From: Streptosporangiaceae bacterium | Lineage (GTDB): Bacteria; Actinomycetota; Actinomycetes; Streptosporangiales; Streptosporangiaceae | NCBI GenBank assembly: GCA_030040815.1 | Contig: JASHSZ010000188.1 | Location: 1-6,267, forward strand | Direction of reading: 5' to 3' | Length of the DNA: 6,267 bases | Part shown: positions 4,033-6,240 of the stretch, one piece after another | Layout of the letters: the number at the start of each line of letters is the position of its first letter | How positions within the stretch are numbered: the first letter of the stretch is position 1 | The notes under the pieces: model-generated | Databases searched by the model: none | What the model was told of the DNA's origin: nothing | What the model saw: only the letters and a program-made list of their open reading frames with translations | Position numbers and translations under genes: made by a program

Positions 4033-6240
4033 ATGGCACCGAACGACAAGGCGGGTAGCGGCAAGGGCGTAGGCGGCGGCGACCGGGACAAGTCCCTGGA
4101 GATCGCGCTCGCGCAGATCGAGCGTCAGTTCGGCCGCGGCGCCATCATGCGACTCGGCGATGACACCCGCACTGCCGTCGAGATCATCCCGACGGGGGCC
4201 ATTTCCCTGGACGTAGCGCTGGGCATCGGCGGCTATCCCCGCGGCCGGATCGTCGAAATATACGGACCGGAGAGCAGCGGGAAGACCTCGCTTGCGCTGC
4301 ACGCCATAGCGAACGCACAAAAAGCGGGCGGGATTGCAGCGTTCATCGACGCCGAGCACGCACTCGACCCCGAGTACGCCAAGAAGCTTGGCGTCGACAT
4401 CGACGCACTGCTGGTATCGCAGCCGGACACCGGCGAGCAGGCGCTCGAGATCGCTGACATGCTGATCCGCTCCGGCGCCATCGACATCATCGTCATCGAC
4501 TCGGTCGCCGCCCTGGTACCGAAGGCCGAGATCGAGGGCGAGATGGGGGACAGCCACGTCGGCCTCCAGGCCCGCCTCATGTCCCAAGCGCTCCGCAAAA
4601 TCGCCGGCGCACTCAATCAGACAAAGACCACCGCAATCTTCATTAATCAGCTTAGAGAACGCATAGGGGTCATGTTCGGGTGTATGTCCTACGGCACCCG
4701 AATTACTCTTGCTGATGGCAGTCAGGAAAAGATTGGCAAAATTGTCAATCAGCGCAGGGACGTCGAAGTTCTGTCCTACGACCCTGAGACCTGCAAGATC
4801 GTGCCGCGCAAGATCGTCAACTGGTTCAACAACGGACCCGCGGGCCGCTTCCTGCAGTTCACTGTCGCCAAGTCAGGCGGCAATGGCCGGGCTCAGTTCT
4901 CGGCCACAGAGAATCACCTGATCCGGACTCCGGGCGGGTGGCGGCCAGCGGGTGAGCTGATCGTGGGAGATCGGCTCCTCGTCACCGAGCCGCAGCGCCT
5001 GAGCGATCAGCAGATGCAGGTGATCCTTGGCTCGCTAATGGGTGACGGCAACCTATCGCCGAACACGCGCGGCAAGTCCGGAACTCGTTTCCGGCTAGGG
5101 CATGGAGCTAAGCAGTCGGCGTACCTGGACTGGAAGGTGTCGCTGCTGGGCAACATCGGATGCTCTCGGACAGTGAATGCCAAGGGCAACGTGTTCGCGG
5201 ACTTCACTCCGCTGCCCGAACTCGCGGAGTTGTACGAAGTCGTCTACATCGGCGACGGTAAGAAGCACCTGACGTGGGACTACCTGAAGGCACTCACGCC
5301 GCTCGCACTGGCGATCTGGTACATGGACGACGGCTGCTTCACCCTGCGCTCCAAGGGCCTGCAGGAACGTACGCAAGGTGGCAGCGGTCGGATCGATTTC
5401 TGTGTGGAGGCAATGAGCCCAGGTTCACGCGATCGCCTGGCGCAACACCTGCGAGATTGTTACGGCTTTGACGTCAGGCTCACCAGTCGTGGTCGACTGG
5501 GGAAAGCGACGCTGATATTCACTACGTCGGCTTCAGAGAAGTTTCAGAAGCTCGTAGCGCCGTACGTGCACCCGTCGATGGAATACAAGCTGCTGCCCAG
5601 GTTCCGGCAGCGGTTCAGCGTCGAGCCGGAGTTCGTCGAGCCAGAGCTGAGGCTGCAGCCTGCGCAGATCCTGGACATCCACGTCAAGCCGCGCACACGC
5701 TCCATGAACAGGTTCGACATCGAAGTAGAAGGCGGCCACAACTACTTCGTAGATGGTGTCATGGTGCACAATAGCCCAGAGACGACGACTGGCGGAAAGG
5801 CGCTGAAATTCTATGCGTCTATTCGGCTAGATATCCGCCGGATCGAGACGCTGAAAGACGGAACCGACGCGGTCGGAAACAGAACGCGCGTTAAAGTGGT
5901 TAAGAATAAATGCAGTCCGCCATTCAAGACTGCGGAATTCGACATTCTCTATGGAATTGGAATTAGCCGCGAGGGCGGACTTATTGACCTCGGCGTGGAG
6001 CAGGGCATCGTCCGCAAGTCGGGCGCCTGGTACACCTATGACGGCGACCAGCTCGGCCAGGGCAAGGAGAACGCCAGGAACTTCCTGCGCGACAACCCTG
6101 ACCTCACCAACGAGATCGAGAAGAAGATCAAGGAGAAGCTGGGGGTGGGCGCCAGTCTCGACACCCAACCTGAGCAGACCGTCGGCCTGAGCCTCACTGA
6201 GAAGGGCATGGCCACGGTGCGCAGCCTGCGCCCCGAGTAG
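4033..6240 (+). CDS. recA: RecA recombinase precursor interrupted by an intein
   Basis: RecA forms ATP-dependent filaments on single-stranded DNA, drives homologous strand exchange, and stimulates LexA self-cleavage. The 735-aa precursor consists of N-extein residues 1-216, intein 217-580 and C-extein 581-735, giving a 371-aa mature RecA after splicing. Walker A is GPESSGKT at 78-85. The Walker B strand IDIIVIDS ends near D156-S157. EGEMGDSHVGLQARLMSQAL covers loop L1, and FINQLRERIGVMFG followed by SPETTTGGKALKFY covers the L2 region. Thus the intein splits the L2 loop and the unspliced protein should be inactive. The C-terminal domain is standard (SGAWYTYDG, GKENARNFL). ATG 4033 has AGGAG (4022-4026) 6 nt upstream. 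The N-terminus has a short Gly-rich extension, GSGKGVGGG, before the conserved KSLEIALAQIE. Two DNA-damage promoters lie upstream. The downstream gene (usually recX) lies outside the window. Confidence 0.97.
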   Translation: MAPNDKAGSGKGVGGGDRDKSLEIALAQIERQFGRGAIMRLGDDTRTAVEIIPTGAISLDVALGIGGYPRGRIVEIYGPESSGKTSLALHAIANAQKAGGIAAFIDAEHALDPEYAKKLGVDIDALLVSQPDTGEQALEIADMLIRSGAIDIIVIDSVAALVPKAEIEGEMGDSHVGLQARLMSQALRKIAGALNQTKTTAIFINQLRERIGVMFGCMSYGTRITLADGSQEKIGKIVNQRRDVEVLSYDPETCKIVPRKIVNWFNNGPAGRFLQFTVAKSGGNGRAQFSATENHLIRTPGGWRPAGELIVGDRLLVTEPQRLSDQQMQVILGSLMGDGNLSPNTRGKSGTRFRLGHGAKQSAYLDWKVSLLGNIGCSRTVNAKGNVFADFTPLPELAELYEVVYIGDGKKHLTWDYLKALTPLALAIWYMDDGCFTLRSKGLQERTQGGSGRIDFCVEAMSPGSRDRLAQHLRDCYGFDVRLTSRGRLGKATLIFTTSASEKFQKLVAPYVHPSMEYKLLPRFRQRFSVEPEFVEPELRLQPAQILDIHVKPRTRSMNRFDIEVEGGHNYFVDGVMVHNSPETTTGGKALKFYASIRLDIRRIETLKDGTDAVGNRTRVKVVKNKCSPPFKTAEFDILYGIGISREGGLIDLGVEQGIVRKSGAWYTYDGDQLGQGKENARNFLRDNPDLTNEIEKKIKEKLGVGASLDTQPEQTVGLSLTEKGMATVRSLRPE
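4681..5772 (+). mobile_element. RecA intein with LAGLIDADG homing endonuclease (M. leprae-type site)
   Basis: A 364-codon in-frame element that excises itself by protein splicing and can spread by cutting intein-free recA alleles. Block A starts at Cys1 (CMSYGTRITLADGS). Block B has the TxxH motif, T76-H79 in intein numbering (ATENHLIRTPGGW). The C-terminal blocks are RFDIEVEGGHNYFVDGVMVHN, ending in His-Asn, and the +1 extein residue is Ser (SPETT). All splicing residues are present. The endonuclease has two LAGLIDADG-type helices, LGSLMGDGNL (acidic D122) and LAIWYMDDGCF (D216/D217), both intact. Length, insertion point (after GVMFG) and sequence (for example EKIGKIVNQ, VNWFNNGP, LTPLALAIWYMDDG) match the M. 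leprae RecA intein (PI-MleI type), not the M. tuberculosis one, which sits at KNK/C. The boundaries are exact by motif. Confidence 0.97.

Follow-up and report, generated by a model that had tools for sequence, protein, structure and literature searches.

The window, a stretch of 6,267 nucleotides from an actinomycete, carries on its forward strand a recA reading frame of 735 codons that includes an in-frame intein (4033..6240; PF00154 at 451.6 bits, RecA_C and TIGR02012). The intein (4681..5772, 364 residues) belongs to the class-1 LAGLIDADG type and interrupts RecA at MFG^SPET, hereafter site b; it matches PF03161 (6.8e-39), TIGR01445 and TIGR01443. It has the hallmarks of a RecA class-1 site-b intein, namely the in-frame position at MFG^SPET, Cys1, a TxxH motif (TENH at intein residue 76), a terminal His-Asn (VHN end) and Ser at +1. 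Its splicing domain matches PI-MtuI structures and its endonuclease domain contains both LAGLIDADG motifs (LGSLMGDG at 116 and YMDDG at 214). Judged by these motifs, both the splicing and the endonuclease parts look intact.

We take site b to be that of the M. leprae RecA intein and site a to be that of M. tuberculosis (PI-MtuI). In the window gene, site a is empty (KNK^CSPPFK, aaa|tgc, 5908..5913, forward strand), and its Cys (5911) corresponds to the +1 residue of the intein present there in three of the compared loci, L209, L210 and L211 (L- and P- labels denote compared loci and proteins, and N and C followed by a number denote codons of the N- and C-extein). The public proteins P0001-P0012, mostly from metagenomes, are 91-95% identical to the window protein across the full 734-735 residues (P0001 95%, P0002 94%) and have LAGLIDADG domains; the intein is therefore established in this lineage. 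A further protein, P0014, is 89% identical in RecA overall and deviates in its N-terminal part, with 20 of 54 residues different between positions 17 and 70, as against 1-7 in P0001-P0013.

For a short open reading frame at 1784-1978, which is presumably a DUF3046 gene and to which no NCBIfam family was assigned, 17 loci have a match upstream of recA; for the reductase gene at the left window edge, L006 has one upstream of recA. Since both also precede recA in relatives, the window gene is suggested to be the chromosomal copy. Between the short reading frame and recA lie about 2 kb (1979-4032), compared with about 0.4 kb in L006. This interval holds an AAA_33 kinase-like reading frame, a short GntR-type reading frame and a region matching GNAT acetyltransferases (2676-3091), which the listed reading frame 2639-2986 covers only in part.

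Low-GC3 patches in recA and its relatives

Third-position GC content (GC3) falls on both sides of the intein junctions. The counts made by eye in the preliminary description were reproduced exactly: 33/36 codons end in G or C over 4501-4608, 14/24 over 4609-4680, 15/30 over the first 30 intein codons (4681..4770) and 28/30 over 4771-4860. On the right side, the values are 17/24 for 5701-5772, 40/71 for 5773..5985 and 79/85 for 5986-6240 (78/84 without the stop codon). The C-extein patch of 71 codons covers the right flank of site b together with both flanks of the empty site a, and extends 25 codons beyond the latter.

We compared these values with chance by shuffling third-position states among codons for the same amino acid. 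Counting extein codons up to 24 from the junction, AT endings occur at 19 of 47 informative codons, compared with 10.0 expected (P=0.0012); counting up to 71, they occur at 44 of 139, compared with 28.9 expected (P=0.0004); for the first 30 intein codons the figures are 15 of 29 and 7.8 (P=0.003). The excess is thus beyond chance, and the best 71-codon window in the whole gene is 5749-5961 (P=0.002). A two-state HMM, with intein-free genes as the baseline, called a tract from N185 to C71 (4585-5985 across the intein) in which 60 of 103 extein codons are GC-ending, which places the start of the zone on the N-extein side at about 4585 (~4585..4680); its right edge, 5985, is the one given in the preliminary description. 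BIC favoured three segments, with breaks at 5722 and 5986, over finer patterns, with small gains. The rare codons AGA, ATA and CTA occur within the patches.

Low GC3 also occurs outside the segments given in the preliminary description. The HMM called a weaker dip at 4255..4338, on either side of the unoccupied P-loop target GPESSGK^T (~4284/4285, placed by eye). This dip is not significant in the window gene alone (codons 71-106, P=0.22) and its call vanishes on a small shift; it was also called in L166, L235 and L171. A further low stretch lies inside the endonuclease region of the intein (5365..5557); it is also the most variable part of the intein protein, and close relatives differ most there.

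We collected recA genes from a sample of genomes that was not exhaustive, with one genome per species. Six of 80 genome loci had an intein at site b; whole-genome searches with a cutoff of E<=1e-120 gave matches in 31 of 200 genomes, those with E<=1e-60 in 25 of 394 and in 20 of 249 (a few of them partial), and further loci came from extein searches and fetched regions. After deduplication, 193 recA genes remained, including that of the window, 78 with a site-b intein and 115 without, five of the latter carrying an intein elsewhere. A GC3 filter removed 32 of the 193, the window gene among them, leaving 161 (73 intein-bearing and 88 intein-free). Codons were mapped by tblastn, and a few near the junctions may be misplaced, most of all at dnaB site 2. 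One gene, L005, has insertions at the P-loop, at site b and in the site-a region.

According to the preliminary description, low GC3 at the same codons in intein-free relatives would make the patches ancestral. This explanation can be ruled out: intein-free high-GC relatives mostly keep GC-rich codons there, with a mean GC3 of 0.91-0.95 in the patch segments, and the nearest intein-free genes of Streptosporangiaceae type (L007-L010) reach 0.92-1.00. The patches are therefore not ancestral to the order. On the other hand, sister species share them: the same segments are low in L166, L235 and L175, those on the C side chiefly in L169, and L146, L168 and L171 show a weaker form, with little in L172. 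Thus, the patches predate the window's species though they are missing from most of the order. The intein-free sisters L173 and L176 have no patches, while two others, L170 and L174, have partial tracts. By eye, 5-8 of the 15 AT-ending codons at the intein start recur in L235, L146, L168, L171 and L175, and 2-3 in L169 and L172. Since a third to a half of them recur in several sisters, the low intein start probably belongs to the same tract as the flanks.

Tracts at three target sites and their link to intein carriage

Many other intein-bearing actinobacterial recA genes share such patches at known target sites, even where these are empty. Besides site b, inteins occupy the P-loop site (for example in L004, L201-L204, L214 and L215) and site a, KNK^C, the latter filled by a CLAEG...VVHN intein in L209, L210 and L211. 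Across the 161 recA genes, the tracts, with a GC3 of about 0.4-0.7, cluster at the P-loop, b and a, with hardly any between N116 and N170 or from C81 onward. Of 2077 tract codons, 1898 fall into the three zones, compared with 1232 expected under random placement (P=2e-4, for zones defined after the tract positions had been seen), and 3 of 50 tracts have their midpoint outside. Likewise, in carriers the excess of AT-ending codons departs from zero by at most 0.03 over N111-N182 and from C75 to the end.

Tracts are associated with intein carriage: 30 of the 73 intein-bearing genes have one, as against 5 of the 88 intein-free ones (Fisher 5e-8). These five are L065, L170, L174, L179 and L190, of which L170 and L174 are near relatives of the window gene. 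Relative to the closest intein-free recA of each, 82 carriers had GC3 shifts of -0.041 at the P-loop, -0.072 at site b and -0.080 at site a (Wilcoxon p of 0.0016, 4e-7 and 2e-5, respectively), as against 0.005, 0.015 and 0.003 in 92 pairs of intein-free genes. Averaging over the 32 distinct free partners, which controls in part for kinship, gave p values of 0.0022, 0.0006 and 0.0012. A test on independent pairs, with four usable pairs and hence underpowered, lends no support to the link.

The dips do not depend on an intein at the site itself. In carriers of inteins elsewhere, empty sites dip in 4 of 5 genes at b (mean -0.32), 16 of 78 at a and 7 of 67 at the P-loop; where the site holds an intein, the numbers are 13 of 77, 1 of 4 and 1 of 14, respectively, and among 93 intein-free genes 2, 1 and 1. 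Tracts also lie in genes without an intein at that site, such as L174, L179 and L214. They are therefore not confined to sites where an intein arrived, although loss is conceivable case by case. In this context, a potential site-a nucleophile (C/S/T) without an intein there occurs in 8 of 77 site-b carriers as against 2 of 110 intein-free genes (p=0.017), which we read as a trace of a lost intein, not as proof. Among the six genes with Cys47 that passed the GC3 filter, the mean site-a shift is -0.25, with four below -0.15 and two, L221 and L229, near zero.

We extended the comparison to dnaB of the same family, with 90 loci from 143 genomes with a match (56 with an intein and 34 without), made up of the 30 best-scoring, mostly intein-free, and 60 hand-picked, mostly intein-bearing loci. 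At dnaB site 2, whose true position is presumably near 403 and whose codons are the most prone to misplacement, GC3 shifts by -0.134 when occupied (29 genes, p=0.002), -0.136 when empty in site-1 carriers (26, p=0.006) and -0.076 in intein-free genes (33). No dip was observed at dnaB site 1 in 44 carriers (p=0.87). With a dip at site 2 and none at site 1, the effect does not hold for inteins in general. Intein-free dnaB genes (L264-L353) have lower GC3 at codons 230-244 (0.80) and 380-409 (0.83-0.84), near both intein sites.

Imported DNA or change in place

We found no donor-like match for 13 genes compared with the 193 recA genes, nor for 11 genes compared with these and 63 viral loci. Within these loci, a phage or viral donor was rejected for the window gene, whose best viral matches (0.72 at b, 0.73 at a and 0.81 at the P-loop) lie below the best cellular ones (0.88, 0.84 and 0.87), and so was a mycobacterial donor, as the AT-ending codons of L001 and L002 coincide with those of its patches no more often than expected. 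The carrier L006 shares 12 of its 15 AT-ending codons with them (p=0.002, compared with p=0.12 elsewhere), consistent with common descent. A single circulating flank cassette was also rejected: the identity of AT-ending codons between distant genes is 0.71 compared with 0.60 in shuffles at b and 0.62 compared with 0.58 at a, and the control region likewise exceeds its shuffles (0.68 compared with 0.63).

Separate phylogenies, as proposed in the preliminary description, were built for 40 genes, and their outcome is limited by short alignments (tests on 321-381 columns). The window gene with L166, and L164 with L200 and L201, form clades in both flank and control trees, and many carriers have longer end branches in the flank tree. 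Tests on the flanks gave AU p values of 0.146 for an eight-gene group and 0.315 for L164 with L200, on 321 columns and thus with low power. Some sharing between lineages may nevertheless have occurred, since L175 and L170, both with Cys47 and an empty site a, are placed with L209 and L210, which carry an intein at site a, in the flank tree but not in the control tree, a grouping open to composition effects.

Silent divergence of the flanks is raised in carriers. Where the control regions differ at synonymous sites by 0.10-0.15, the flanks of 35 carrier pairs differ at such sites by 0.350 and those of 97 free pairs by 0.200, with flank amino-acid divergences of 0.065 and 0.056. Below 0.10, the 9 carrier pairs reach 0.232 in the flanks and the 26 free pairs 0.103, with 0.022 and 0.015 for amino acids (L210 was excluded throughout). 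Plain local hypermutation was rejected, since amino-acid divergence of the flanks stays flat while silent divergence rises. Cytosine deamination of 3' overhangs, expected to leave T on the left and A on the right, was rejected as well, because the lean is opposite, with an excess of T on the right (amino acids uncontrolled). Five of the nine closest carrier pairs fall among L161, L164, L200, L201 and L205, at flank values of 0.26-0.49; the remaining four, at 0.06-0.17, resemble free pairs. Between L164 and L200, 51% of synonymous codons differ over C12-C64, as against 1 of 53 residues, and 3 of 119 control codons differ as against 22 of 50 in the site-a region. By comparison, 3022 pairs with 38-50% synonymous difference over C12-C64 have a mean of 7.7 residue differences, and 40 of them have at most one. 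Almost purely silent divergence of this kind is hard to square with a distant donor, and also with simple hypermutation unless missense changes were completely purged.

L166, the closest species found, carries a different intein at site b (66% identical nucleotides, 252 of 364 residues), with flanks 88% and 84% identical to those of the window gene and exteins 91-94% identical outside the flanks; its intein was exchanged and its flanks were kept. At synonymous sites, L166 is closer to L218 in the site-a region (0.70, as against 0.64 for the window gene) and to L212 in the site-b flank (0.75, as against 0.63), whereas by total nucleotides the window gene remains its nearest relative in both regions (0.88 and 0.84).

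Considering these results, we infer that homing endonuclease activity caused the tracts, and we lean, with modest confidence, towards a homing scar made in place and not a block of donor DNA. In intein-carrying lineages, silent sites in some 30 codons around the P-loop, b and a could lose their preference for GC-ending codons and diverge rapidly under an unchanged protein sequence, at occupied and empty sites alike. The driver we favour would be homing pressure on the target and its short homology arms: silent changes may persist because they reduce endonuclease cutting or templated repair, or break repair at the target may itself be error-prone. Several observations speak against such a scar, namely the occupied P-loop sites without tracts (14 genes, one dip), the 43 of 73 intein-bearing genes without a tract, the null result at dnaB site 1, the restriction of silent excess among the closest carrier pairs to five genes, and the two Cys47 genes with little or no dip. 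The tract is also wider than the footprint of a LAGLIDADG endonuclease, about 20-30 bp. As a more specific possibility, which we think rather unlikely, an arms race may operate in which intein-exposed hosts silently recode about 90 bp on each side of the recA targets with the protein unchanged. Such recoding would remove both the cut site and the homology for templated repair, and inteins would answer with new specificities, so that silent scars would lie on empty and occupied targets alike.

The preliminary description had instead suggested co-conversion; on this view, the intein would have arrived together with low-GC3 donor flanks not yet adapted to host codons. The association of the patches with inteins and insertion sites stands, and the rare codons, the synonymous affinities of L166 and the flank-tree position of L175 and L170 would agree with this origin; the classical low-GC3 donor found no support. 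In addition to the failed donor searches, the tested clades either agree between the trees or escape rejection, residue changes are few, tracts occur at intein-less sites, the window intein is itself GC-ending at 260 of 334 codons from codon 31 on, and L166 exchanged its intein with its flanks retained. We therefore regard co-conversion as unlikely. Selection on the junction DNA, also raised there, fits better than co-conversion, yet it would have to act at three sites, of which two are empty in the window gene. A doubtful further explanation is relaxed codon constraint: beside the heterology, alleles with and without the intein would be kept from recombining, and third positions, deprived of GC-biased conversion or codon selection, would drift to mutational balance. 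Release from constraint would give an equal silent speed-up without homing; it would suit the intermediate GC3 of the tracts and a change that is silent and mostly in place, and it can cover recently emptied sites. However, L164 and L200 would then require a control region far below the neutral rate, and occupied P-loop sites would be expected to dip, which they do not. Escape selection, mutagenic repair and lost codon constraint would each fit the present data. It is quite improbable that rare AT-ending codons slow the ribosome near the intein for folding and splicing: the low GC3 at each junction of the window gene and over the start of its intein would suit such tuning, whereas the tracts in L174, L179 and L214 and the lack of dips at occupied P-loop sites in recA and dnaB oppose it. 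Chance or ordinary heterogeneity of codon usage could draw on the small BIC gains and the non-significant P-loop dip, and is scarcely credible given the permutation result for the junction zone and the recurrence and position of the tracts across lineages.

Relation to known systems

Inteins are often regarded as nearly cost-free passengers. If the homing scar is real, a silent footprint at occupied and empty targets would record past homing in genes that lack an intein, and the choice between foreign templates and mutagenic repair, open for mobile introns, would become testable in bacteria. In either case, GC3 patches next to inteins do not prove horizontal transfer. Among the open-licence matches listed, none reports in its title or the start of its abstract a silent-site or GC3 change around inteins.

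Like the known RecA inteins of M. leprae (site b) and PI-MtuI (site a), the window intein has a canonical insertion site and both splicing and LAGLIDADG motifs; unlike them, it belongs to a lineage, known from genomes and metagenome proteins, in which site a is empty yet retains the +1 Cys. Exon co-conversion during homing is described for phage introns and haloarchaeal mcm (PMC10643990). It likewise predicts altered flanks beside homing sites, but it also predicts donor DNA, for which trees and residues give no support here. The same paper reports that homing endonucleases tolerate substitutions, mostly synonymous, in the target of a related species; this speaks against escape through only a few changes.

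The closest parallel comes from yeast mitochondria, where exonic polymorphism is raised at the insertion sites of mobile introns (Repar and Warnecke 2017, PMC5378118). The authors leave the cause open between outside co-conversion templates and mutagenic repair. The recA tracts show the same gradient at homing sites, with excess silent change near insertion sites and protein constraint kept. In both systems, excess variation linked to a mobile element lies within tens of bases of the homing sites, protein constraint is preserved and a donor was not found. Unlike the within-species polymorphism around mitochondrial introns, the differences here are between species and concern a bacterial chromosomal intein, take the form of a GC3 drop and affect empty target sites too.
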